Of a DNA stretch of 49,513 nt, positions 1 to 43,027 are shown piece after piece. Every line of letters starts with the position of its first letter. The first letter of the stretch is position 1. The position numbers were made by a program, and so were the translations under genes. The DNA is from an uncultured Bacteroidota bacterium (lineage in GTDB: Bacteria > Bacteroidota > Bacteroidia > Flavobacteriales > BACL11): NCBI GenBank assembly GCA_902533655.1, contig CACAMX010000004.1, positions 1-49,513 on the forward strand, read 5' to 3'. Below the pieces are notes generated by a model. The model was not told the DNA's origin and did not search any database. It worked only from the letters and a program-made list of their open reading frames with translations.

Positions 1-1
1 T

Positions 2-862
2 TTTTTAGCTTTTTTTTTAGTAAAAAATAATTTACAAACATTAACAAGTGCTTTTCATGAGTGTCAAACATTCTTTAATATTTTTTTCTACGATATTGAG
101 AAGAGCTCTATTTCGATTTTTAACATTGATTTTTGCAGAAATCAAGGTCTTTTTTGGGAACCAGGTATTTTGCAAGCTTATTTAAACTTACTTTTTTTTA
201 TAGAAGCATTTTACTTTAAAAAAAGAAAGGTTTTTTTAATGTTAATTGCATTTGTAGTTATTACTACATATTCTACTTCTGGCTTAACAATATTATTAAT
301 ACAAAGCATCGTGTATATTTATGAAGAAGTTAAGAAGAGCAAAATTTTTGGATTTATTGCCGTACTTTTATTAGTTCCGGTAATTTTTATCTACTCAAAT
401 AACATTGAAAATAAGATTAAAGGTGATTATGAAAGTTCTTTTCAAAAAAGGTTATTTGATTTGACTCAACCCTTTTTTATAGCTTTACAAAATCCGATTA
501 CAGGAGTAGGCTTAGACGTTATTCAATTTCAAGAGGTTAGAAAAGAATTTTATTTTAATTCTAAAAGATTAAATTTTCTACAGGATCAAATAGGAATACA
601 GTCTAAGTCAAAAACAACAGAAAAGGGAAGTTCTAATTCTGTAATGTTCCTATTAGCGACACTTGGATTTCCTTTTACAATATTGTTACTTTATTTTGTG
701 TTTAAGCAGAGTTTTTTTGAACAAAAAAAGATTTTATTTTTTATATTCTTTTTCTTAACAATAATGTCTCAACCATTGTTACTTAGACCTTTCTTTTTTA
801 TATTTATTATTTCAGGAATGATAAATATTTACAGTAAGTTCAGAATAAATACTGCTTTATGA
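2..862 (+). CDS. O-antigen polymerase/ligase-like membrane protein (5' end outside window)
   Basis: The frame is open from base 2, so the gene begins to the left of the window; the TTG at 170 lies inside the conserved part and is not a believable start. The visible part carries the motif RNQGLFWEPGILQ (bases 137-175), the large-loop signature of Wzy/WaaL-type O-antigen polymerases and ligases, followed by several hydrophobic segments. Such proteins sit in the inner membrane and polymerise or transfer lipid-linked glycan units on the periplasmic side. The stop overlaps the next start by 4 bases (ATGA), so it heads the visible part of a polysaccharide operon. Polymerase versus ligase cannot be decided from this fragment. 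Confidence 0.75.
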   Translation, partial: FLAFFLVKNNLQTLTSAFHECQTFFNIFFYDIEKSSISIFNIDFCRNQGLFWEPGILQAYLNLLFFIEAFYFKKRKVFLMLIAFVVITTYSTSGLTILLIQSIVYIYEEVKKSKIFGFIAVLLLVPVIFIYSNNIENKIKGDYESSFQKRLFDLTQPFFIALQNPITGVGLDVIQFQEVRKEFYFNSKRLNFLQDQIGIQSKSKTTEKGSSNSVMFLLATLGFPFTILLLYFVFKQSFFEQKKILFFIFFFLTIMSQPLLLRPFFFIFIISGMINIYSKFRINTAL

Positions 863-1992
863 AAATCTTAATTACTGGAGGAGCAGGATTTATAGGTTCT
901 AATTTAGTTAACCTATTATCAAATTTAAATTATGAGATAACTGTGGTTGATAGCTTGCTGAAGCAAGTGCATGGTAAAACCCAAAAATCTTTTTCTTATC
1001 GTCAGATTTTGGGTAAATGTAAATTTGTAAAATCAGACATAAATGACAATACAGTTTTTAAAAGATTACTTCTTGATTCGGAGGTATTAATCCATCTTGC
1101 ATCGCAGACAGGTACTGGGCAATCTATGTACGAAAAAGAACTTTATGAAAAATCAAATATTCTTGGCACAGAGAATATCTACAACTTATTAAATGATAAT
1201 AGTAATAATATTAAAAAAATAATCTTAACCTCATCAAGATCAGTCTACGGACAAGGAGAATATGAGTATCTTGATGGATCCTCGTATACCAATTCAAAAT
1301 TTAAAAGTAATAAACTTGAGTTTGAAGAGGATTTTGATCTCTATTGTCATACAACAAATAAGAAATTAAGACCTATTGCAACAAAAGAAACTTCAAGATT
1401 AGCTCCCAAGTCTTATTACGCTGAAACAAAATTAAGACAAGAGCATATTGTAAAAAAAATAAATAAAGAGCTTGGCATCAATTGCATAATATTGAGGCTG
1501 CAAAATGTCTACGGCGAGGGCCAATCATTAATTAATCCATATACTGGAATTTTATCTATATTTTCAAATAGAATCTTAACTAATTCTAACATTGAAATTT
1601 TTGAGGATGGTCAACAAACAAGAGATTTTGTACATGTCTCTGACGTTGTTTCAATAATCAAAAAAATTATTGATGATAAAGTTAAAAACAAATTCCTAAT
1701 ATATAATGTAGGCTCAGGTTCTAGTACAAAAATAATTGATGTTGTAGAAACTCTCTATAAATACTTTAAGAAGAAAAAAAACTATATAATAAATGGTAAA
1801 CACAGAAAAGGTGACATAAGACATAACTTTAGTGATATAAGTAAAATCAAAAATGACTATAAATTTTCTATTTCAGTAGATTTTAAGCAAGGGATAAAAA
1901 GATATATTGATTGGGTTAAAAATCAAGATATTGTTGAAACCAGTTATGAAAATACTTTAAATGAGTTGAGTCAAAAAGGTTTATTAAAATGA
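859..1992 (+). CDS. NAD-dependent epimerase/dehydratase (extended SDR, nucleotide-sugar modifying)
   Basis: A 377-residue extended short-chain dehydrogenase. The Rossmann glycine motif GGAGFIG is at residues 7-13, a serine of the catalytic triad is in TSS (124-126), and the YxxxK pair is Y187/K191. Enzymes of this family interconvert or dehydrate nucleotide-activated sugars in the cytoplasm (UDP-glucose 4-epimerase or dTDP-glucose dehydratase types); the exact substrate cannot be read from motifs. An insert of roughly 50 residues lies between the serine and tyrosine motifs (about 133-183), longer than in GalE. It overlaps both neighbours by 4 bases (ATGA), indicating translational coupling in the glycan operon. 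Confidence 0.85.
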   Translation: MKILITGGAGFIGSNLVNLLSNLNYEITVVDSLLKQVHGKTQKSFSYRQILGKCKFVKSDINDNTVFKRLLLDSEVLIHLASQTGTGQSMYEKELYEKSNILGTENIYNLLNDNSNNIKKIILTSSRSVYGQGEYEYLDGSSYTNSKFKSNKLEFEEDFDLYCHTTNKKLRPIATKETSRLAPKSYYAETKLRQEHIVKKINKELGINCIILRLQNVYGEGQSLINPYTGILSIFSNRILTNSNIEIFEDGQQTRDFVHVSDVVSIIKKIIDDKVKNKFLIYNVGSGSSTKIIDVVETLYKYFKKKKNYIINGKHRKGDIRHNFSDISKIKNDYKFSISVDFKQGIKRYIDWVKNQDIVETSYENTLNELSQKGLLK

Positions 1993-3371
1993 AAAAAATA
2001 TTTTTCTTAATGTTAACTATTTTGAACACAAACTTTCTTTCTTCTCAAGAAAGAACGATAAAAAATCTTTACGGCTTTGGAACTAACACCACCTTTATGT
2101 TCAACGATATTAAAGATACAAGCTTTTTGAGTAACGTCAATATTATCTCTCCCAGGTTACTAGCATTTCCAGGTGGTTTAGGTAATTTTTATCATCTCAG
2201 TGGTATGGGTTATGGAATAAAAATAAGTGAGGTAGATTTCTTTCACAAAGGAAAGCTGCCAAAAAGAATCAGAGGAATAAATAAAATTATTGAAAAAAAT
2301 AAACATGAAAATTACATATATCCTTTTATTGATTTATCAAAAAAACTCAAATCAGATGTAATAATTGATGCAAATATACTATCGGCTGAAATAGATGAAA
2401 CTATTCAAATGATTAACTTGATATTAAAAAATGGAATTAAAGTTAGTTATGTCGAGATTGGAAGAGAGCTTACAAATCAAAGTTACCATGAAAATTTCGA
2501 CATTTATAAGTACTTAGAAAAGTCAAAGGCTTTAACTGAAAGAATTAGAGTTGCTTTTCCAAATATAAAAATAGGTGTTGTTGCAGCACCCATATACAAA
2601 AGTTATGTAAAGCATGTGAACTGGAATAAACTTTTATCAAAAGAAAATTTTTATGATGCAATAGTAGTTCATACCTATGCAAAGGTAACCAAAGGAAAAG
2701 ATGAATATGGTAAAATGGTTACTGAATATCCCGAAGGTAAAAATATGTATCAAGCTTTTAATATCTATAAAAAAAGGTCACTTGATTTTTTTAAAGAATA
2801 TCCAAAAGAAATAAATGACTATTCACAAATGTTTCAAAATAAAGATATCTGGATTACGGAATGGAATCTACAAGTTTCAAAATTAACAGGTAATACACAT
2901 ATTCAATCATTATTTGTTTTTTGCTACTTAATGGAAGTTGCTTGTAACAAGGAGTTAAGAAAAATTAATTTAATGTCATTTCATAATCTTGCCGGAAGAG
3001 ATATATCTTCCTCAGTGATAATAAACAGAGAAAAAAGTAGTCTTAGCACTACGTATGCAGCGTTCAAGTTGTTATCAGATATTTTTGTAAACGATAGAAT
3101 TACTGTTGTTAGAAGAAGCATTACAAATGAATTTTTTGAATATGAATTTCATAGTGAAAAAAATGAAAAGTTTTTTGTTTGTATAAATTGGTCAGAACAA
3201 GCAAAAAAAGTAGATGTTTCCGAATATGATTACTCAAAGACATATTACTCAGAAAATTTATATGACAATCAATACTACTCAGAAAATTTTTCAAGTAAAG
3301 AAGTTAACTTAAAAGAGTTAGAAATACCAAAGTTTAGTTTTTGTATTTTTAAAAGTGGAAAAAACAAATAG
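1989..3371 (+). CDS. Secreted clan GH-A-like glycoside hydrolase
   Basis: A 460-residue protein with an N-terminal signal peptide (residues 1-20, ending SSQ). The body resembles arabinofuranosidase/heparanase-type (beta/alpha)8 hydrolases: FPGGLGNFYH at 60-69 recalls the RFPGG..N motif of those families, EIGRE (156-160) sits where the GNE acid/base motif is expected, with Arg in place of Asn and E160 as candidate acid/base, and WITEW (288-292) gives E291 as candidate nucleophile. A Trp/His-rich region and a beta-rich C-terminal part follow. A periplasmic or extracellular glycosidase translationally coupled to a sugar epimerase and a sulfotransferase suggests it trims or edits the glycan made by this operon, which is inference. 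Family assignment is by motif only. Confidence 0.6.
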   Translation: MKKIFFLMLTILNTNFLSSQERTIKNLYGFGTNTTFMFNDIKDTSFLSNVNIISPRLLAFPGGLGNFYHLSGMGYGIKISEVDFFHKGKLPKRIRGINKIIEKNKHENYIYPFIDLSKKLKSDVIIDANILSAEIDETIQMINLILKNGIKVSYVEIGRELTNQSYHENFDIYKYLEKSKALTERIRVAFPNIKIGVVAAPIYKSYVKHVNWNKLLSKENFYDAIVVHTYAKVTKGKDEYGKMVTEYPEGKNMYQAFNIYKKRSLDFFKEYPKEINDYSQMFQNKDIWITEWNLQVSKLTGNTHIQSLFVFCYLMEVACNKELRKINLMSFHNLAGRDISSSVIINREKSSLSTTYAAFKLLSDIFVNDRITVVRRSITNEFFEYEFHSEKNEKFFVCINWSEQAKKVDVSEYDYSKTYYSENLYDNQYYSENFSSKEVNLKELEIPKFSFCIFKSGKNK

Positions 3372-4194
3372 ACCAAATTTATTTTTAGTTGGATCTCCTA
3401 AATGTGGCACAACCTATCTTTGGAGTAAATTAAAAGAACATCCAAAAATTTTTTCTCCAAAATTTCCTGAGAAAGAAATCAATTTCTTTTCCTATAATAA
3501 TTTAAAAAATGATTCTTATTACAAATTTTACGGTATCACTAAATTAAATGATTATTTAAATCTATTTAAAAACTCTACTAATGAAAAATATTTAATGGAC
3601 TCAAGTGTTTCATATTTTACTGACGAAGAAGCTCCAAAGAAAATATTTAAATTTAATTCTAAATCGAAGATAATTATAATGTTTAGAGATCCTGTGAAAA
3701 GAGCTCTCTCACATCATTCAATGGATTTTAGAATGGGTTTAGCGAACAACTCTTTATCAAAATACTTGCTTGATTCGCGGTTAAAAAAATTTTATGTTCA
3801 ATATGTGCACAATAGTATGTATTATAAGTATTCAAAAAATTATATTGATGCATTTCCAAAAAAACAAATCTTAATTATTGATTTTAATGATAAAAAAAGT
3901 ATCTCTGAAAAAATTTCTAATTTTTTATCAATTGATTTTGATAACGATTTTTTTGATTTTAGTGAGCGTATCAATTCAAACAAGGCCCCAAAAAACTTGA
4001 TTTCAAAGTACTTTCAAAGAAACAGGCAACTAACAACAGTATTAAAAAAATATTTACCAAAAAAAATAATTAATAAATTTGAGCCATACTTGTACTCTAA
4101 TGAGATTCGCATTCAATATTCGGATGAAGAAAAAAAAATACTAGAGGAATTATTAATTAAAGATTGGACAAGTTTTCAAAAAATGATTAGCTAG
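3355..4194 (+). CDS. PAPS-dependent sulfotransferase
   Basis: A 279-residue cytoplasmic-type carbohydrate sulfotransferase. The 5'-phosphosulfate loop GSPKCGTTYL is at residues 13-22 and the 3'-phosphate binding segment FRDPVKRALSHH at 110-121, both diagnostic for the family that transfers sulfate from PAPS to sugar hydroxyls. Translation most likely starts at GTG 3355; the next in-frame ATG (residue 81) would remove the PAPS loop. It overlaps the upstream glycosidase by 17 bases and its stop directly abuts the ATG of the acyltransferase. Context points to sulfation of the surface glycan, a plausible trait for a marine bacterium. Confidence 0.85.
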   Translation: MEKTNRPNLFLVGSPKCGTTYLWSKLKEHPKIFSPKFPEKEINFFSYNNLKNDSYYKFYGITKLNDYLNLFKNSTNEKYLMDSSVSYFTDEEAPKKIFKFNSKSKIIIMFRDPVKRALSHHSMDFRMGLANNSLSKYLLDSRLKKFYVQYVHNSMYYKYSKNYIDAFPKKQILIIDFNDKKSISEKISNFLSIDFDNDFFDFSERINSNKAPKNLISKYFQRNRQLTTVLKKYLPKKIINKFEPYLYSNEIRIQYSDEEKKILEELLIKDWTSFQKMIS

Positions 4195-4671
4195 ATGAAA
4201 AGCTCTATAACAGAATCAAAAAAAAATATCGGATTTTCTAGAATTTTAGACAAATTACTTCACACTATTGCTAAAAGCTCATTGCTTGGTTCTAAGGCTC
4301 GAGTTTTTATTCATCATCTAAGAGGTGTAAAATTCAAAAATAGATCTACGGTATTTATTGGAGAAGATGTCATTATTGATCCGATAAATCCTTCAAATGT
4401 TGAAATAGGGGATAGATGTTTAATAACAGCTGGAGCAAAAATATTAACACATTATATCGACACAAAAAATCGATCTGAAAATCCTGAATATTATTTCAGA
4501 TTTTATGATGGAAAAGTAATCATAGAAGATGATGTTTTTATTGGAGCAAATGCAGTTATTGCAAAGCCAGTTAGAATTGGAAAGGGGTCAATAATTGGAG
4601 CAAATGTTGTCGTAACTAAAGACATCAAAACAAGTTCTGTTTATACAGGAACTAATAATTCTCAATTGTGA
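4195..4671 (+). CDS. Hexapeptide-repeat acyltransferase (WbbJ/serine-acetyltransferase type)
   Basis: A 158-residue left-handed beta-helix acyltransferase. Imperfect hexapeptide repeats run from about residue 50 to the end (for example VEIGDR, VIIEDDVFIGANAVI, IGKGSIIGAN). No membrane segment is present, so it is a soluble acetyl-CoA-type O- or N-acetyltransferase rather than the multipass kind. It begins immediately after the sulfotransferase stop (no spacer), and its own stop overlaps the GTG start of the next gene (GTGA). Likely role: acetylating a sugar of the O-antigen or capsule; the acceptor is unknown. Confidence 0.8.
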   Translation: MKSSITESKKNIGFSRILDKLLHTIAKSSLLGSKARVFIHHLRGVKFKNRSTVFIGEDVIIDPINPSNVEIGDRCLITAGAKILTHYIDTKNRSENPEYYFRFYDGKVIIEDDVFIGANAVIAKPVRIGKGSIIGANVVVTKDIKTSSVYTGTNNSQL

Positions 4672-5567
4672 TTAAAGTTGCTATTATTACAATAACATAC
4701 AACTCTAGTAATGTAATTATACCTTTTCTAAAATGCCTCTCAGAAAGTAGTTTTAAAGACTTTAAGCTGTTTATTATAGATAACAATTCAGTTGATGAAA
4801 CAGTAGAGATAATCTGTAAAATCAAAAAAATAGATGTTCAGGTTATTGAAAACAAAAAAAATATAGGTGTCGCTGCAGCAAATAATATGGGGATTAAACT
4901 TGCCCTGGAACAGGGCTATCAAAAAGTTTTACTTTCAAACAATGACATAGTATTTGATAAAAATATAATAGGTGACTTAGTTAATTTTAGTAAAAATCAA
5001 TCAAGTAGTATTTCCTCTTTGAAGATAATGTATGAACATGATAAAGATAAAATTTGGTATTGTGGGGGCTTTTTCAATTTTAATAAAGGACTAGTTCCCG
5101 AACACTTAGGAATAGGACAGCCTGATTTCGGACAATACAATCATTTAAAGTATTCAGACTATGCTCCAACTTGTTTTGTTTTGTTTGATTCCAAGGTTTT
5201 CTCTGAAATTGGGTTTATGGATGAAGCATATTTTGTTTATTTTGACGATACAGACTTTTTTTACAGAGTAAAAAAAAATGGAAACTTCAAGTTATTAGTT
5301 AATCAAAAAATTAAAATATTTCACAAAGTAGGTAGTTTAACATCAACAAGTGATGCAAAAGGAAAAAAAAGCAATTTTTTCATCAGTCAAAATATTCAAA
5401 ATCATTTTTATTTTTTAAAAAAAAATGAGCGACTATATTTTTATCTATTTATACCTTTTCTGTTCATTAGATATAATTTGCGTACTATAGTAAGTAATCA
5501 ATATAAATTTAGCTTTAATACTTTATTGTTAGTTAATAAGTCAATCATTAAAGGAATATTAAAATGA
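4668..5567 (+). CDS. Glycosyltransferase family 2 (rhamnosyltransferase-like)
   Basis: A 299-residue GT-A fold glycosyltransferase. The N-terminal strand and nucleotide-binding region VAIITITYNS begins at residue 3; the nucleotide-contacting motif IIDNNS.D and the DxD-like segment LLSNNDIVF follow; and FMDEAYFVYFDDTDF is the acceptor/catalytic block typical of the rhamnosyltransferase-like branch. The C-terminal 40 residues are basic and hydrophobic, suggesting peripheral membrane association. The start is GTG 4668, overlapping the previous stop; the end overlaps the next ATG by 4 bases. It adds one sugar to the growing lipid-linked glycan at the cytoplasmic face; donor sugar not identifiable. 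Confidence 0.88.
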   Translation: MIKVAIITITYNSSNVIIPFLKCLSESSFKDFKLFIIDNNSVDETVEIICKIKKIDVQVIENKKNIGVAAANNMGIKLALEQGYQKVLLSNNDIVFDKNIIGDLVNFSKNQSSSISSLKIMYEHDKDKIWYCGGFFNFNKGLVPEHLGIGQPDFGQYNHLKYSDYAPTCFVLFDSKVFSEIGFMDEAYFVYFDDTDFFYRVKKNGNFKLLVNQKIKIFHKVGSLTSTSDAKGKKSNFFISQNIQNHFYFLKKNERLYFYLFIPFLFIRYNLRTIVSNQYKFSFNTLLLVNKSIIKGILK

Positions 5568-6703
5568 AGATTAAAGTTGCAATAATTGATCCAATAGGCT
5601 CTCACGGTAGTTCACATCATTACTATTTGTTCGCTCAAGCTAAAGGGTTAATTGAAAATAAAGTAGATGTAACTATATTCTCTAATAAGAAAACTTATCT
5701 CAGCTCATTAGGTAAAATTAAAGTCGAAAATACCTTTGGAGATATCTTTAAAACTAAAAGAAAATTAGCTAATGCAATATTTTATGTTATTGGAATATTA
5801 AAATCATTTTTTAAAGCAAAATTTAGCTCTCATAATTTTTTTCATCTTCATTTTTTTGACTTTAACATTCTTAATTTTTTCGCATGTTTTTTTGCTACTT
5901 TCTTTAATGTTAAACTAGTACTAACAATTCATGATGTTAATCCATTTTCTAAAAAAACTAATCCATATCTCAAAAGATGGATTTTATTATTAGCTGATAA
6001 AGTAATTGTTCATAATGAATTTTCAAAAAAAGAACTAATTAAAGATAAAATAAATCTGAAAAAAATATCAGTTGTTCCACATGGTCATTATTTAGATTTT
6101 ATAAAGCCAAAAACAAATAAAATAGTTGCAAAAAAGAAATTTGGCTTGCAAAGCAAAAAGGTAATTATGTTTTTTGGAATGATTAAAGAAGAAAAAGGTT
6201 TAGACATATTAATTAAATCTTTTCATGAAGTACGTAAAAAAAACAAAGACGTAGTTTTATTTATTGCTGGAAAGAATTACAAAACAGATAATAAAAAGTA
6301 CACAAAAATAATTAACCAATTAGGCTTAAAAAACTCATGTGTAATACACAACAAGTACATTCCAGAAAATGAATTATGTGATTATTACGGCTGTGCCGAT
6401 GTGATAGTTTTACCTTACAAACTAATATTTCAAAGTGGTGTACTCATGATGTCATCCAGCTTTAATGTACCTATTATAGTATCAGATTTAGAACCATTTT
6501 TAGATATTATTGATGATCAGAAAAATGGATTAGTCTTTAAAGTAAATGATGTTAAATCTTTAGCTGAAAAATTAATTTTTTCTATTAACAGTTCTGAAAA
6601 GATGAACTCTTATGCAAAAAATAATTTTGAAAAAATAAAAAATCAATATGATTGGACTAAAATTGGTAAGCTTAATAAGGATGTTTATCTTTACTCTAAA
6701 TAA
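5564..6703 (+). CDS. Glycosyltransferase family 4 (GT-B fold)
   Basis: A 379-residue retaining glycosyltransferase. The N-terminal half holds an acceptor-side glycine/histidine-rich loop (GSHGSSHHYY near residues 12-21) and a VLTIHD strand; the C-terminal half contains the donor-site region with FFGMIKEEKGLDILI and a LPYK.IFQSGVLMMSSSFN segment followed by IIVSDLEPF, in the position of the family's E(x7)E region. It overlaps the GT2 gene by 4 bases and is followed after 8 bases by gmhA, so it seems to close the glycan-assembly part of the operon. Substrate unknown. Confidence 0.85.
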   Translation: MKIKVAIIDPIGSHGSSHHYYLFAQAKGLIENKVDVTIFSNKKTYLSSLGKIKVENTFGDIFKTKRKLANAIFYVIGILKSFFKAKFSSHNFFHLHFFDFNILNFFACFFATFFNVKLVLTIHDVNPFSKKTNPYLKRWILLLADKVIVHNEFSKKELIKDKINLKKISVVPHGHYLDFIKPKTNKIVAKKKFGLQSKKVIMFFGMIKEEKGLDILIKSFHEVRKKNKDVVLFIAGKNYKTDNKKYTKIINQLGLKNSCVIHNKYIPENELCDYYGCADVIVLPYKLIFQSGVLMMSSSFNVPIIVSDLEPFLDIIDDQKNGLVFKVNDVKSLAEKLIFSINSSEKMNSYAKNNFEKIKNQYDWTKIGKLNKDVYLYSK

Positions 6704-6711
6704 TTAAAAAT

Positions 6712-7293
6712 ATGATTATTCAAATTCAAAACATATTACAAGAATCAAAAAACACAGTAGAAAAAACAATAAAATCTGAGCAAATAATAAAGAATTTGAA
6801 TGCAGTTGTTGAAATTATTTTCAATGCATTTAGTGCAGGAAACAAAATATTATTGTGTGGTAATGGAGGTAGTGCAGCAGATGCTCAACATATTGCAGCA
6901 GAGTTAACAGGAAGATTTTTTAAGGATCGAACTGCTTTATTTGCAGAAGCATTACATGTAAATTCATCATACATGACTGCTGTAGCAAACGACTATGGTT
7001 TTGAAAAAACATACTCTAGACTTTTAGAAGCAAAAGGAAATAAAGGTGACGTTTTAATTGCTATATCAACAAGTGGAAACTCTCCAAATATTATTAATGC
7101 AGTTCATAAAGCAAAAGAGATTGGTTTAAGTATAATATCCTTTACCGGTCAAAATGATTCTAAAATCAAAGAATTATCTCATATTTGTTTACAGTCCCCT
7201 TCAACCAACACTCCAAGAATTCAGGAAATTCATATATTGTTTGGTCATATTATTTGTCAATTAGTAGAGGAGAAAATTTTTCCAAATGTTTGA
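6712..7293 (+). CDS. gmhA: Sedoheptulose 7-phosphate isomerase GmhA
   Basis: A 193-residue SIS-domain protein, the same size as E. coli GmhA (192). It converts sedoheptulose 7-phosphate to D-glycero-D-manno-heptose 7-phosphate, the first step of ADP- or GDP-heptose synthesis for LPS core or surface glycans. The glycine-rich CGNGGSAADAQH runs from 49 to 60, STSGNS from 119 to 124, and the catalytic/metal-site residues known from E. coli (H61, E65, Q172, H180) correspond to H60, E64, Q171 and H179 with a constant one-residue shift. It overlaps gmhB by 8 bases, so the two are translationally coupled. Confidence 0.92.
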   Translation: MIIQIQNILQESKNTVEKTIKSEQIIKNLNAVVEIIFNAFSAGNKILLCGNGGSAADAQHIAAELTGRFFKDRTALFAEALHVNSSYMTAVANDYGFEKTYSRLLEAKGNKGDVLIAISTSGNSPNIINAVHKAKEIGLSIISFTGQNDSKIKELSHICLQSPSTNTPRIQEIHILFGHIICQLVEEKIFPNV

Positions 7294-7780
7294 TACACTA
7301 TTTCTTGATCGTGATGGAGTCATTAATGAAAAACTAGATGATAAATATGTTACATGCATCAAAGAATTTGTATTCATTGAAGGGGTTTTAGAATCTTTCA
7401 GAGCTATAAATAAATATTTTAAAAGAGTAATAATCATTACAAACCAACAAGGCATAGGAAAAAAAATTATGACAATTAAACAATTAGAAGATATACATAA
7501 TTATATGCTATCTGAGATTGAAAATTCAGGAGGAAAAATTCATAAGATTTATTTTTGTCCAGATTTAGAAAGTAAAGAAAATAATTGCAGAAAACCGGGT
7601 ACAAAAATGTTCGAAAGAGCATTAGAAGATTTCCCAAAAATAGATTTAAAAAAATCTTTCATGATTGGTGATTCAGAATCTGATATAATAGCTGGAAAAA
7701 AAATGGGAATAAAATCAGTTAAAGTTAACTTGAAATTTAATTTGAAATTGGCATTAAAAAAAATTATTAATATTCCTTAG
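7286..7780 (+). CDS. gmhB: D-glycero-D-manno-heptose 1,7-bisphosphate phosphatase GmhB
   Basis: A 164-residue HAD-superfamily phosphatase. The nucleophile motif is FLDRDGVI with D8 and D10, the second motif includes ITNQQGIG (51-58), the lysine motif is CRKP (101-104) and the acidic motif is IGDSESD (127-133). It removes the 1-phosphate of heptose 1,7-bisphosphate after the kinase step. The zinc loop is degenerate: C91 and C101 are kept, but the His and the third Cys of the usual C-x-H...C-x-C are replaced (D93, N99). No heptose kinase or nucleotidyltransferase is in the window. It is the last gene of the glycan block; about 50 bases separate it from the oxidase genes. Confidence 0.88.
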   Translation: MFDTLFLDRDGVINEKLDDKYVTCIKEFVFIEGVLESFRAINKYFKRVIIITNQQGIGKKIMTIKQLEDIHNYMLSEIENSGGKIHKIYFCPDLESKENNCRKPGTKMFERALEDFPKIDLKKSFMIGDSESDIIAGKKMGIKSVKVNLKFNLKLALKKIINIP

Positions 7781-7810
7781 TTTTTTCATAATCAATAACT
7801 ATATATATCT

Positions 7811-7818
7811 TAATTTTG
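7811..7818 (+). promoter_or_regulatory. Bacteroidota -7 promoter element (TAATTTTG) of the oxidase operon
   Basis: An exact match to the TAnnTTTG consensus used by the primary sigma factor of Bacteroidota, 12 bases before the apparent ACG start at 7831. It marks the break between the heptose genes and the oxidase genes. No clear TTG -33 element is seen at the right spacing. Confidence 0.7.
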
Positions 7819-7830
7819 TAAAAAAAAACA

Positions 7831-8382
7831 ACGGAAAAAAAAGTCAAAATAAAATCCCTTAAACAACTACTTTGGATAGGTATTGGTGGAATGGTTATGT
7901 TTTTTGCAGGCCTAACTTCTGCTTATATTGTAAGAAAATCTGAAGGTAATTGGCAAGAGTTTGAGCTTCCAAGCTGGTTTCTATATAGTTTCATATTAGT
8001 AATTTTTAGCAGTATATTTGCTTTTCTTGCTAAAAAGAGGTTTCACAAAGAACAACCATATCAACAAATGATTTTAGTTACTGTTGTACTTGGCTTCTTG
8101 TTTTCTTTGTCACAGTTTTTAGGCTGGAAAGAACTTGTTCAAAATGGTATTTATTTTACTGGTGAAGGTTCAAACCCCTCAGGTTCTTTTTTATACGTGC
8201 TAACTCTAGCGCACTTATTACATTTAATCGCTGGACTCATAGCGCTATTAGTTGGATACTTCAATTCAATTTCCAATAAGTATACTATTCATAATCATTT
8301 AGGACTTGATTTAATTTTTACTTTTTGGCATTTTTTAACATTCTTATGGGTCTACCTTTATTTATTCTTGGTTTTTATCTAA
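7831..8382 (+). CDS. Heme-copper oxidase subunit III-like protein, apparently ACG-initiated
   Basis: A five-helix membrane protein of the cytochrome c oxidase subunit III family (helices starting at LLWIGIGGMV, SWFLYSF, QQMILVT, FLYVLTL and HLGLDLI). The first ATG in frame is 7891, but that falls in the middle of helix 1. The frame stays open back to a TAA at 7819, and the codons from 7831 read ACG-GAA-AAA-AAA-GTC, matching the short charged leader usual before this helix; the only canonical-looking position is occupied by ACG. Starting there gives 183 residues. It pairs with the longer subunit III at 8440. Its role is as structural subunit of the aerobic terminal oxidase in the inner membrane. 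Confidence 0.8.
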   Translation, partial: TEKKVKIKSLKQLLWIGIGGMVMFFAGLTSAYIVRKSEGNWQEFELPSWFLYSFILVIFSSIFAFLAKKRFHKEQPYQQMILVTVVLGFLFSLSQFLGWKELVQNGIYFTGEGSNPSGSFLYVLTLAHLLHLIAGLIALLVGYFNSISNKYTIHNHLGLDLIFTFWHFLTFLWVYLYLFLVFI

Positions 8383-8423
8383 AAAAAAAGTAAAAATTAA
8401 TAATTTTCATAAGTCAAAAAAAT

Positions 8424-8431
8424 TAATTTTG
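8424..8431 (+). promoter_or_regulatory. -7 promoter element (TAATTTTG) before the second subunit III gene
   Basis: An exact TAnnTTTG match whose final G is 8 bases before the ATG at 8440. The transcript would have almost no 5' leader. It allows the second subunit III gene to be transcribed independently of the first. Confidence 0.65.
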
Positions 8432-8439
8432 TAAACAGT

Positions 8440-9351
8440 ATGAGAGTAGCAAGCAATACAGATTTTGGCCCAGCATGGAAAGGTGGAGATAAACCATTTG
8501 CAGCGAGTTATGGCAAACTCATGATGTGGTTTTTCTTGATTACTGACGCCTTAACGTTTTCAGGGTTTCTAGCAGCTTATGGATTTAGCCGATTTAAGTA
8601 TGAGCAATCTTGGCCAGTTCCAGATGAAGTTTTTACTCATTTTCCCTTTATTAAAGGTGAATTCCCATTATTCTTTGTTGCATTAATGACTTTCATTTTA
8701 ATAATGAGCTCTGTAACTATGGTTCTGGCTGTTAATTATGGGCATAAGATGAAAAAAAAGCAAGTGATCCTTTGGTTATCACTTACAATCATTGGTGGTA
8801 TTACTTTTCTAGGCTCTCAAGCTTGGGAATGGGGGCACTTTATTCATGGAGATAAAGGTGCAATAATTACTGATGAAAAGGAAATCATTCATCTTGTTAA
8901 TGATGAAAAAGAAATTTCATCAGTCTATAAGTTTATGGGAGTAGACTCATATTCTAAAGATCGATTTTCGCAGATGAATTATGAACAGTTCGTTGAAAAA
9001 TTTAAATCTCAAAATAAGTATAAATTAAAATCTTCCAAAAAAGTTGTTTTAGATCATAATGATGCCGTTACTTTACTGGAGAGTAAGGGGAAAGATTTTG
9101 TTTTGGGAGCAAATTTGGTGAATAACGAATACGGTCATGCACTATTTGCAGATTACTTCTTTTTTATTACAGGATTTCACGGGTTTCATGTTTTTAGTGG
9201 TGTGGTATTATTAATTATTCTTTTAATTAATGTAATAGCAAATACTTATGAAAGAAGAGGTCATTACGAGATGGTTGAGAAAATTGGTCTATATTGGCAT
9301 TTTGTCGATTTGGTATGGGTTTTTGTTTTTACTTTTTTCTATTTAGTTTAA
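8440..9351 (+). CDS. coxC: Cytochrome c oxidase subunit III
   Basis: A 303-residue membrane subunit of a heme-copper oxidase. Helices are visible at about residues 26-48, 75-98, 109-127, 235-268 and 279-302. The conserved WEWGHFI follows helix 3, and HALFADYFFFITGFHGFHV with YWHFVDLVWVFVF at the end are family signatures. Between helices 3 and 4 there is a polar insert of about 90 residues (roughly 138-228), rich in Lys, Asp and Glu, absent from proteobacterial subunit III; from memory, flavobacterial homologues carry something similar here. The catalytic subunits I and II are not in the window. Nine bases separate it from subunit IV. Confidence 0.9.
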   Translation: MRVASNTDFGPAWKGGDKPFAASYGKLMMWFFLITDALTFSGFLAAYGFSRFKYEQSWPVPDEVFTHFPFIKGEFPLFFVALMTFILIMSSVTMVLAVNYGHKMKKKQVILWLSLTIIGGITFLGSQAWEWGHFIHGDKGAIITDEKEIIHLVNDEKEISSVYKFMGVDSYSKDRFSQMNYEQFVEKFKSQNKYKLKSSKKVVLDHNDAVTLLESKGKDFVLGANLVNNEYGHALFADYFFFITGFHGFHVFSGVVLLIILLINVIANTYERRGHYEMVEKIGLYWHFVDLVWVFVFTFFYLV

Positions 9352-9360
9352 ATTTTAGTT

Positions 9361-9684
9361 ATGTCTTCAAAATCAAATAATAATTGGTGGATTTGGAAAG
9401 TTTTCTGGATACTTTTAATAGTAACTGCTGTAGAAGTAGTGTTAGGAATAATTAAGCCACAATATTTAGTCGAAACAAAACTTCTAGGTACAATCTTGTT
9501 GAACCATGTTTTCATAATCTTGACTATTATTAAGGCTGCTTATATCGTAATGGTATTTATGCACCTTGGAGATGAGAGACCAGCTCTTCAGTGGACAATC
9601 ATTCTACCTGCAATAATACTAATACCTTATTTACTTTTTATTTTACTAACCGAAGGTGGATATACCCACTTTATGAGAATATAG
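9361..9684 (+). CDS. Cytochrome c oxidase subunit IV (caa3/bo3 type)
   Basis: A 107-residue protein with three membrane helices (about 13-30, 40-65 and 76-97) and the MVFMHLGDE segment typical of prokaryotic oxidase subunit IV. It follows subunit III by 9 bases and precedes SCO1 by 2 bases, the usual order in Flavobacteriia. It assists oxidase assembly or stability in the inner membrane. Confidence 0.88.
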   Translation: MSSKSNNNWWIWKVFWILLIVTAVEVVLGIIKPQYLVETKLLGTILLNHVFIILTIIKAAYIVMVFMHLGDERPALQWTIILPAIILIPYLLFILLTEGGYTHFMRI

Positions 9685-9686
9685 GC

Positions 9687-10364
9687 ATGCTTTCAAACAA
9701 TAAATCAATCAGTAAATGGATTGGCTTATCACTGCTTTTGATAATCCCATCTTTTATTTATCTTTTTATTAGTAAAGCAGACAATAATTTCATGAAACTC
9801 TCATTTGTAGGTCCAGAAAATCATGTAATTCCTGAATTTTCTTTTGTCAATCAAAACAATGAAATCATAACAAATGATGACTACAGAGGAAATATTTATG
9901 TTGCAAATTTTTTCTTCACTACATGTCCTACAATATGTCCAATAATGACATATAATATGAGAGTAGTGCAGCAAAGGTTAAGTGTTTATCCAAACATAAA
10001 GTTTTTATCACATTCAATAAATCCAAAAAATGATACTCCCGAAAGACTATTAGATTATGCTAATGAAATGAGAGCAAATTTAATGAATTGGAATTTTGTT
10101 ACAGGTGAAAAAGAGTCCATCTACGATATTGCAAAAGAATATTTTGTGAATGCGGTTGAAGATTCACTTGCCCCTGGTGGGTTTTTTCACTCAGAGTATT
10201 TTGTTCTGGTTGATAAAGAAGGAAAAATCAGATCTGGAATTGATAAAAAGGGAAATATTGTTGGTGTTTATGATGGAACAAAAGACACTGATATAAAAGA
10301 TTTAATTAATGATGTTAAAGTATTAATGGCCGAATATAAAAGACCAAAAAAAGATGAGAAATAA
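9687..10364 (+). CDS. SCO1/SenC-type copper chaperone for oxidase assembly
   Basis: A 225-residue membrane-anchored thioredoxin-fold protein. The start is ATG 9687, two bases after the subunit IV stop; longer versions of the frame only run into the upstream gene. One N-terminal helix (11-28) anchors it to the membrane with the domain in the periplasm. The copper ligands of the family are present: CPTIC with C80 and C84, and H168 in FFHSEY. It delivers copper to the CuA site of subunit II or acts as its thiol reductase. The last 11 bases overlap the next gene, implying co-translation. Confidence 0.9.
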   Translation: MLSNNKSISKWIGLSLLLIIPSFIYLFISKADNNFMKLSFVGPENHVIPEFSFVNQNNEIITNDDYRGNIYVANFFFTTCPTICPIMTYNMRVVQQRLSVYPNIKFLSHSINPKNDTPERLLDYANEMRANLMNWNFVTGEKESIYDIAKEYFVNAVEDSLAPGGFFHSEYFVLVDKEGKIRSGIDKKGNIVGVYDGTKDTDIKDLINDVKVLMAEYKRPKKDEK

Positions 10365-41600: not shown

Positions 41601-41847
41601 CATGAGGGAATAAAATACAATCACTAAAATTTAAAGATTTGATATCATTAACAAAGTATGCTGCCTCTTTGAAATTTGAAAAAATGATGAGATTATTGTT
41701 ACTTAGCTTAGCTAAAATGAATGGTAAATATGAATCAATTTTAAAATCAAAAAATATTTTTTCTTTTAAAGGAATTTTTTCAGTAAACAAATGGTTTTTA
41801 AAAAAATTTAAAAACTTATTATTACAGATTATCTTTTTAAGATTCAA
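38611..41847 (-). CDS. mfd: Transcription-repair coupling factor Mfd
   Basis: A 1078-residue SF2 translocase, a little shorter than E. coli Mfd (1148). A UvrB-homology N-terminal part (QPGQFSVRGSIIDIF, 166-180), an RNA-polymerase interaction domain (about 405-465) and the RecG-like motor with GDVGFGKTEL (561-570), DEEQ (662-665), TATPIPRT (688-695) and QMRGRVGRS (831-839) are all present, plus a C-terminal TRCF domain. It removes stalled RNA polymerase and recruits UvrA. It overlaps pfp by 11 bases at its start. Confidence 0.96.
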   Translation of the reverse strand: MNLKKIICNNKFLNFFKNHLFTEKIPLKEKIFFDFKIDSYLPFILAKLSNNNLIIFSNFKEAAYFVNDIKSLNFSDCILFPHVDSNDDDEAISQIKKERSNVLNFLVEKESTVVVSYSEAVIQKIVNKKTYLNQTLRLKKNEIIDYDSLIEKLENIGFEMIDFISQPGQFSVRGSIIDIFSHNNKNPIRLEIYNEILVEIREFEIHTQLSQKSLEFVNINSSSNDSIKVNKTSSIFDYLNNEDFVWHNDILHTQQLISNLQKNEIDENLPFLNLNEFSNHLKEKIIIEKINSNLFINSKIINSNIESNRNYNKSFELLSKDIKKWSKKKYTNIILCSSESQINRIDSVLKNKVSEKLYCFYSAVIKEGFIDHNNKVVIYTDHQIFNRYLKFRRNRFSTYKRISLDDFNSLNVGDYIVHIDYGIGIFDGLKSIVNDRIKKEVLKIKYKNDDIIYVNINSLYKLSKYSSSEGIIPKLNQIGSKNWLTKKEKTRKRIKLIAFNLIQLYAKRKKSKGFSFSKDDYLQDELEASFIYEETKDQKLSLQQIKRDMESNTPMDRLICGDVGFGKTELAIRASYKAVLDNKQVAVLVPTTILALQHYNTFQNRLENLGCNIEFISRLKTNKQIEEIFKKINDGSIDIIIGTHSISNDKINFKDLGLLIIDEEQKFGVNIKDKMKLKKENVDILSMTATPIPRTLQFSLMGARDLSILNTPPKNRRPIITNKISFDKELIEDAINFEIERGGQIFFVHNNVSSIESIANFIRKICPSSKVEVVHGKKKSSEIENILTEFINNNFNVLVTTTIIENGVDVSNANTILINNAHDFGLSDLHQMRGRVGRSNTESYCYLIAPNSKILTNVSNKRINSMMKYSDLGSGLKIALRDLDIRGAGNLLGADQSGFVNEMGFEMYQRILNDAINELKKERLNEERLINYKECQFESDIEMYIPKKYIFNDHERLKTYRMLNSLNDETDIKKYISEIEDRFGKKPDELNSFVLGLKVKNLGKKLFAEKIRLRNNNLSIFWSDDQNTKTDKILNFVALNIDKTQIKQKDRFLILTIRQVPGLNSSLECLKSIFEFNS

Positions 41848-43027
41848 AGTCTTGACTCATTTCTTTGAACCATTTTGAAGAAATTTCAAAAGGTCTATCT
41901 CCTCGAATTCTGTTAAAATCTATGCAAGTTAATTTATTTTTATTTTCAATATCTTCTCCTATGACACCATTTTTATCTAATATGGCACTTTCAACTGCAA
42001 AATCACAAAGTTTAAAAATTAGATCTAAATCTTCTTTGTTCGGAGATGAGCTTCTCGCAAAGTATCCACTTTTTTGAACTAGAACTTTGTCAGCTAGCAA
42101 CTTTGTTTTAAAATATTTTGCAAACCATTTACCTGCATTGAGATCATCTAGTCTGTAGTGTCCAAATGCATCTTTTTTGATTTCAATATTATTCTTTAAT
42201 TTTTCTTTTATTATAATATTTGTGCCTGCTCCTTCGCTTAAAAAAATATTTACACATCCAAATTCATCCATTATTTTTTTTAATCTTGATGATTCCTTCT
42301 CAATATTAAATTCAATCTCGGGTATTAGTATAGAGTGAATATCCCACGCTTTCTTTCGTAAATTTACTGATTCAAAGAATTTTTTATTTTTCAATCTTTG
42401 CTTATAAATATATGCAGATTTTGCTGTTAGCCATCCACAATTTCTACCCATTATTTCATGTATAATTAGATGCCTTGAACTTGTTGTGTTTTCGTTAACA
42501 ATATTTTCAAAATAAATTGCAGTTTGTTCCGCTGCAGTTATTGCTCCAAGAGTTTGGTTTATTGGTAATACATCATTGTCTATTGTTTTTGGCAGTCCAA
42601 TTACTGTCAATTTGTAATTGTTTTCTTTTAAATAGTTTGATAAATCACATGCAGTTGTGTTTGTATCATCTCCTCCAATTGTGTGTAATATGTCAATATC
42701 ATCTTTTTTAAGCTGTTCAGCAGCTATTTTAAGAGGAATTTCATTTTTTTTGATGTATCCTTTATCTATACAATCGTTAATATTAGTTAGCTTCACACGG
42801 CTATTACCAATTAAACTACCTCCAAATTCATAAATACCATCACATTTGTTTATATCTGGCAGTTTTAAAAAAATTTTGTTGTTTGTAAGTAATCCTTTGT
42901 AACCGTTTAAGTATCCAACAAAATTTACATTATCAAACTTTTTTTTATACTGAAACATTAAACGAACAATACAAGAGGAGAGACAAGGTGCAATTCCTCC
43001 AGAAGTTAAGAATGCTATATTTTTCAT
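41837..43027 (-). CDS. pfp: Phosphofructokinase, pyrophosphate-dependent type
   Basis: A 396-residue phosphofructokinase. The phosphoryl-donor loop reads GGDDT (118-122) instead of the GGDGS of ATP enzymes, and the catalytic loop PKTIDND (146-152) has Lys where ATP enzymes have Gly; both are the accepted marks of PPi-dependent enzymes. The N-terminus TSGGIAPCLSS (8-18) belongs to the same PPi-type branch, and MGRNCGW (193-199) is the sugar-phosphate motif. It reversibly converts fructose 6-phosphate and PPi to fructose 1,6-bisphosphate, serving glycolysis and gluconeogenesis. It is cotranscribed with mfd (11-base overlap). Confidence 0.9.
   Translation of the reverse strand: MKNIAFLTSGGIAPCLSSCIVRLMFQYKKKFDNVNFVGYLNGYKGLLTNNKIFLKLPDINKCDGIYEFGGSLIGNSRVKLTNINDCIDKGYIKKNEIPLKIAAEQLKKDDIDILHTIGGDDTNTTACDLSNYLKENNYKLTVIGLPKTIDNDVLPINQTLGAITAAEQTAIYFENIVNENTTSSRHLIIHEIMGRNCGWLTAKSAYIYKQRLKNKKFFESVNLRKKAWDIHSILIPEIEFNIEKESSRLKKIMDEFGCVNIFLSEGAGTNIIIKEKLKNNIEIKKDAFGHYRLDDLNAGKWFAKYFKTKLLADKVLVQKSGYFARSSSPNKEDLDLIFKLCDFAVESAILDKNGVIGEDIENKNKLTCIDFNRIRGDRPFEISSKWFKEMSQDFES

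Follow-up and report, generated by a model that had tools for sequence, protein, structure and literature searches.

A genus-conserved ACG as the probable start codon of a short cytochrome oxidase subunit III gene in Bacteroidota

Very few natural start codons in bacteria fall outside the set AUG, GUG and UUG. The AUU of E. coli infC and other near-cognate starts lie one base from AUG, are conserved among relatives and are presumably read by the ordinary initiator tRNA. E. coli IF3 regulates itself, and non-AUG starts of infC are well known elsewhere. Initiation in Bacteroidota does not use Shine-Dalgarno pairing. Among 61,358 reconstructed ancestral prokaryote AUG starts, the only switches are to GUG, UUG, CUG (two cases) and AUU (one case) (PMC5622118). 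No report of a natural bacterial ACG start was found in the literature searched. In plant chloroplasts, an ACG stands in rpl2, psbL and ndhD where an ancestral ATG stood, and it is edited to AUG in the mRNA (PMC9845219). In Flavobacterium johnsoniae, the initiation regions are A-rich and Kozak-like, with no Shine-Dalgarno sequence, with A at -3 and -6 as positive determinants of initiation, and with a TAHHTTTG promoter located 4–5 nt before the RNA start (PMC6847099).

The gene described here, cox3a, encodes the short subunit III of a haem-copper cytochrome oxidase, the oxygen-consuming enzyme, and is a core energy gene, found here in a group of ocean bacteria. It lies in the window, by which we mean the whole stretch of 49,513 nucleotides analysed. 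The genus is represented by five genomes, three of which carry cox3a: the window's own, G001 (a MAG, PBAP01000006.1) and G003 (CACIJW010000001.1, isolate AG-913-I23, which we take to be a single-cell genome from the isolate name). The gene was not found in the G002 and G004 assemblies, which are 86% and 62% complete. The features around its start are as follows.

7811..7818, plus strand: TAATTTTG, which fits TAHHTTTG, the -7 promoter element of Bacteroidota; G001 and G003 have the same letters
7819..7821, plus strand: in-frame TAA stop bounding the cox3a reading frame
7823..7830, plus strand: 5' leader as predicted, roughly 8 nt long, AAAAAACA, of an RNA whose first base is expected 5 nt past the G of the -7 box
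7831..8382, plus strand: cox3a, short subunit III, 183 aa (PF00510, PDB matches, codon differences)
7831..7833, plus strand: ACG, proposed start codon (conservation, position of the relatives' ATG, start context)
7849..7851, plus strand: ATA, rival start codon, conserved in all three genomes
7858..7926, plus strand: transmembrane helix 1, residues 10–32 of the ACG-started protein (AlphaFold2 model and alignment to relatives)
7891..7893, plus strand: ATG, the first in this frame, lying within helix 1; rejected as a start (start context, synonymous-only substitutions)

The protein matches PF00510 with an E-value of 1.5e-8 and 35.3 bits, above the cut-off of 23.8, and it matches solved subunit III chains in the PDB, the best being 7q21_E (E 6e-11). 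Between the window and G001, 55 codon differences are synonymous and 14 nonsynonymous. The AlphaFold2 model, a single-sequence prediction of low confidence (pLDDT 62), served solely to place helix 1. No second intact copy of cox3a was found in the genome, the sole other match being the long subunit III gene, cox3b. The surrounding genes are listed below.

7286..7780, plus strand: upstream gene, heptose bisphosphate phosphatase-like (gmhB/HisB HAD family; TIGR01656 over cut-off, 1.3e-35)
8424..8431, plus strand: TAATTTTG before cox3b, 8 nt ahead of its ATG, with the same box in G001 and G003
8440..9351, plus strand: cox3b, long subunit III, normal ATG start (PF00510, E 1.7e-11)
9361..9684, plus strand: subunit IV (COX4_pro; PF03626, E 7e-14)
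9687..10364, plus strand: SCO1/SenC copper chaperone (PF02630, E 1.6e-29)

As in the flavobacterial short subunit III genes (CtaE/CyoC-like, PF00510), to whose family it belongs, cox3a is followed by the long subunit III, subunit IV and SCO1. It differs from them in its separation from cox1, its own promoter-like box and its proposed ACG start: in most of the family cox1 directly precedes cox3a, whereas in this genus cox1 lies apart (about 31 kb off in G003), and cox3a sits behind a polysaccharide gene cluster in a gene order conserved in all three genomes. The stretch from 1 to 9678 of the window, from the polysaccharide genes to subunit IV, is 96% identical to G003, while the remainder is about 86% identical; this drop near 9.7 kb hints at a recent recombination or transfer ending there. 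SCO1 has a shorter N-terminus in the window than its G003 counterpart of 285 aa.

After the TAA at 7819–7821, the cox3a frame reads AAA AAA ACA ACG GAA AAA AAA GTC AAA ATA AAA TCC and continues to the TAA at 8380–8382. The initial annotation had noted that the frame is open after this stop and that the ATG at 7891 lies inside helix 1. No ATG, GTG or TTG precedes that codon, and a second ATG follows at 7897, also within the helix. Helix 1 codons aside, the only one-base neighbours of ATG available as a start are ACG 7831 and ATA 7849. Several other origins of the N-terminus were rejected. A start upstream of the poly-A run is interrupted by the stop at 7819 and by a one-base indel in the run, which has 9 A in the window and 10 A in G001 and G003; this difference in length breaks the frame before 7828 and therefore places the start after 7828. 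The TTG at 7816 is followed immediately by the TAA. A fusion with the upstream HAD gene is precluded by its different frame and by its stop at 7780, 50 nt before the ACG. Slippage on the A run adds A only and cannot create an AUG.

The orthologous codon is ACG in both G001 and G003, so that all three genomes of the genus with the gene, each assembled separately, agree. Relatives outside the genus start cox3a with ATG. A search for further close relatives gave no match among viral contigs and, among genome contigs, the same two genomes and one distant one. The initial annotation had allowed that the ACG might be a strain variant of ATG or a mistake of sequencing or assembly, and had proposed comparison with close relatives as a check. 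Since the same base is present in PBAP01000006.1, in CACIJW010000001.1 and in the window's assembly, and nothing was found in favour of an error, sequence, as far as it can speak to the matter, refutes this alternative, and its residual probability is negligible. The same annotation expected homologues to read Met-Glu-Lys-Lys; the near ones instead begin MKKSVKDKAL-KQLLW, MEGTL... and MNTVKNKAL-KQLLW. The position of their Met agrees with that of the ACG, while their N-terminal sequence does not match.

Coding selection extends upstream of the first canonical start. Across the three genomes, all seven substitutions in codons 7834–7890 are synonymous (chance p about 3e-5 to 8e-5), which indicates that the coding region reaches well upstream of ATG 7891. 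Six of them lie between ATA 7849 and ATG 7891 (p about 2e-4 to 5e-4); selection for coding is thereby shown from 7858 on, and the seventh, GTC/GTT at 7843, occupies a wobble position between ACG 7831 and ATA 7849. Since a single substitution separates these two codons, selection alone does not decide between them. The length of the N-terminus provides a further comparison. In the 36 relatives compared outside the genus, in which helix 1 is complete, the distance from the start ATG to the conserved Trp of helix 1 is 11–17 codons in nearly all and most commonly 13–14. The distance is 14 codons from ACG and 8 from ATA, while ATG 7891 lies behind the Trp. In the relative beginning MKKSVKDKAL-KQLLW (L014), the N-terminus is identical in length to that of the ACG-started protein.

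The start context was scored with a profile built from 422 ATG starts of the genus, using internal in-frame codons as controls. ACG 7831 scores 8.1 bits (97th percentile), a value matched by 0.08% of the controls. ATA 7849 scores 2.7 bits (45th percentile; 6.7% of controls are as high), and ATG 7891 scores -4.7 bits, which ranks at the 1.4th percentile among true starts. A-rich sequence in general scores well with this profile, including the neighbouring triplets ACA 7828 and AAA 7837, and we regard the result as support rather than proof. The cox3a start has A at -3 and -6, and G at +4, a position that is A in 68% of starts. The RNA folds weakly in this region (z = +1.2).

The perfect box that the initial annotation had placed upstream of the ACG is present as TAATTTTG, 12 nt from the codon. 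By itself the box carries little weight, with 23 occurrences in the window against 14.6 expected. In this genus TAHHTTTG is strongly enriched upstream of starts, at a distance of up to 30 nt (87 versus 8 in shuffles), and the distance from TAATTTTG to the cox3a ACG is usual for a -7 element there. TAnnTTTG occurs exactly 4 nt before the ATG in 25 of 422 genes (G003 and G000). This spacing stands out as a sharp peak, probably the signature of a class of leaderless mRNAs. By this peak, with which the F. johnsoniae spacing agrees, transcription begins 5 nt beyond the G of the -7 element, and the cox3a RNA is thus inferred to begin near 7823. The corresponding leader of about 8 nt is predicted, and differs from the F. 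johnsoniae leaders, 87% of which are predicted to exceed 10 nt in a study that treats canonical starts (PMC6847099). Scans for sigma-70 promoters, terminators and Rfam families gave nothing relevant to the cox3a start.

Position, selection and context together support the first of the initial annotation's two alternatives, a genuine ACG start, and we consider it likely, on this sequence evidence, that translation of cox3a starts at ACG 7831 by direct initiation with fMet-tRNA. In the proposed mechanism, the mRNA would begin about 8 nt upstream within the A run, giving a short, unstructured, A-rich leader, and the A-rich context with A at -3 and -6 would favour initiation at ACG with no Shine-Dalgarno pairing. 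The initiator fMet-tRNA (CAU anticodon) would mispair at the middle position of the codon, and the resulting protein, (M)EKKVKIKSLKQLLW..., would carry formyl-Met as its first residue. The efficiency of such initiation is probably low. The sole initiator-type tRNA match in each of G000, G002 and G003 has the normal CAT anticodon, and the G001 and G004 assemblies yielded no such match; a variant initiator tRNA with a CGU anticodon was sought and not found. The likely history is that cox3a parted from cox1, came to lie behind the polysaccharide cluster and gained its own promoter, after which ACG became fixed in the genus. The change from ATG to ACG would fall in the interval between the divergence of the genus from the relatives sampled and that of its three lineages.

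The absence of a canonical start is confirmed by the genomes compared, and the remaining doubt lies between ACG and ATA. A start at ATA 7849, 18 nt on, would turn the ACG and the codons after it into a leader and yield the protein (M)KSLKQLLW... This codon is also a single mismatch from ATG, conserved in all three genomes and average in its context, and most of the codons that demonstrate coding ahead of 7891 are located downstream of it. Conversely, the protein would have an unusually short N-terminus, with 8 codons before the Trp where nearly all relatives have at least 11, and a context score reached by 6.7% of internal controls. Among the three genomes, 7831–7848 has a single change, in the third base of a codon, whereas several changes and an indel are present in the intergenic sequence that directly precedes the promoter. 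Direct initiation at ACG has its own difficulties, namely the single substitution in 7831–7848, the A-rich bias of the context score, the G at +4, and the absence of ACG from the start-codon switches reconstructed across prokaryotes (PMC5622118). We infer that ACG rather than ATA is decoded, and regard initiation at ATA as unlikely. Much less probable is a start at ATG 7891, which would remove the first half of helix 1: it is the first canonical start and the one reported by a mechanical ORF list, while the upstream codons under coding selection, the poor context and the full helix of the relatives all argue against it. Still less credible is C-to-U editing of the mRNA, by which the ACG would become AUG before translation in the manner of the plant organelles, where the chloroplast genes rpl2, psbL and ndhD provide the precedent. 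It would yield the same sequence picture and is set aside only by general knowledge of bacteria, in which editing of this kind is stated not to be observed (PMC9845219).

Within the preferred reading of direct ACG initiation, a smaller share of probability falls to selection for the codon itself, and we offer this only tentatively. The ACG would then act as a translational brake, a role that the initial annotation had also raised as a possibility, and one that keeps the output of cox3a low and sensitive to IF3 relative to that of cox3b, throughout a genus whose infC start is likewise non-canonical. This proposal is consistent with the retention of ACG in three lineages while synonymous sites changed, and with the separate TAATTTTG boxes of cox3a and cox3b, the latter with an ATG. 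The infC of the same genus also appears to have no canonical start, and IF3 may regulate itself here. However, drift compensated by a strong context accounts for the same facts, and subunits of one complex are usually required in equal amounts.

Two features expected of a genuine near-cognate start, no canonical start upstream of the conserved coding region and conservation of the codon in close relatives, are found in cox3a. Compared with E. coli infC, the mismatch lies at the second codon position rather than the first or third, and the gene encodes a respiratory subunit with no known autoregulation loop. The editing that converts the ACG of the chloroplast genes is not known in bacteria. 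If direct initiation is correct, a codon mismatched at its second position can serve as a stable start given a good context, where Shine-Dalgarno pairing is absent, and gene finders would cut short the cox3a product, and perhaps further proteins of A+T-rich marine Bacteroidota.

To assess how rare such cases are within the genus, genes that are 80 codons or longer and have an ortholog in one of the other genomes (676 in G003, 544 in G001 and 224 in G000) were screened for coding-like conservation ahead of the first canonical start. In pairs with the window, cox3a is the clear case, with 4–5 synonymous and no nonsynonymous changes, and none of the 676 G003 genes gave a comparable one. Genes with diverged N-termini escape this criterion, as does infC, which was found by hand. 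In all five genomes (L184–L188: G004, G002, G003, G000 and G001), infC has the conserved IF3 N-terminus KKKESNRLKIN.QI.APFIRIVGDN with no ATG, GTG or TTG upstream. The codon before APFIRI is ATG in G002 and G004, GTG in G003 and ATA in G000; because it varies in this way it is probably internal, and infC would have to start at a non-canonical codon. An upstream in-frame ATA is common to four of the genomes; at this site the G001 MAG, which is rich in N, carries one additional A. The other strong rows of the screen comprise short, probably antisense ORFs and a pfp-like gene broken in G003. The latter (L039, G003:C1:52664-53594) is phosphofructokinase-like and broken near its N-terminus, and the orthologous stretch in the window lies within a 396-aa ORF on the minus strand (41837–43027). 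A COX1 frame with nine in-frame TGA codons (L057, G036:C5:1862-3199) represents either a mitochondrial contig binned into a bacterial genome, which is the probable case, or an organism reading TGA as Trp.
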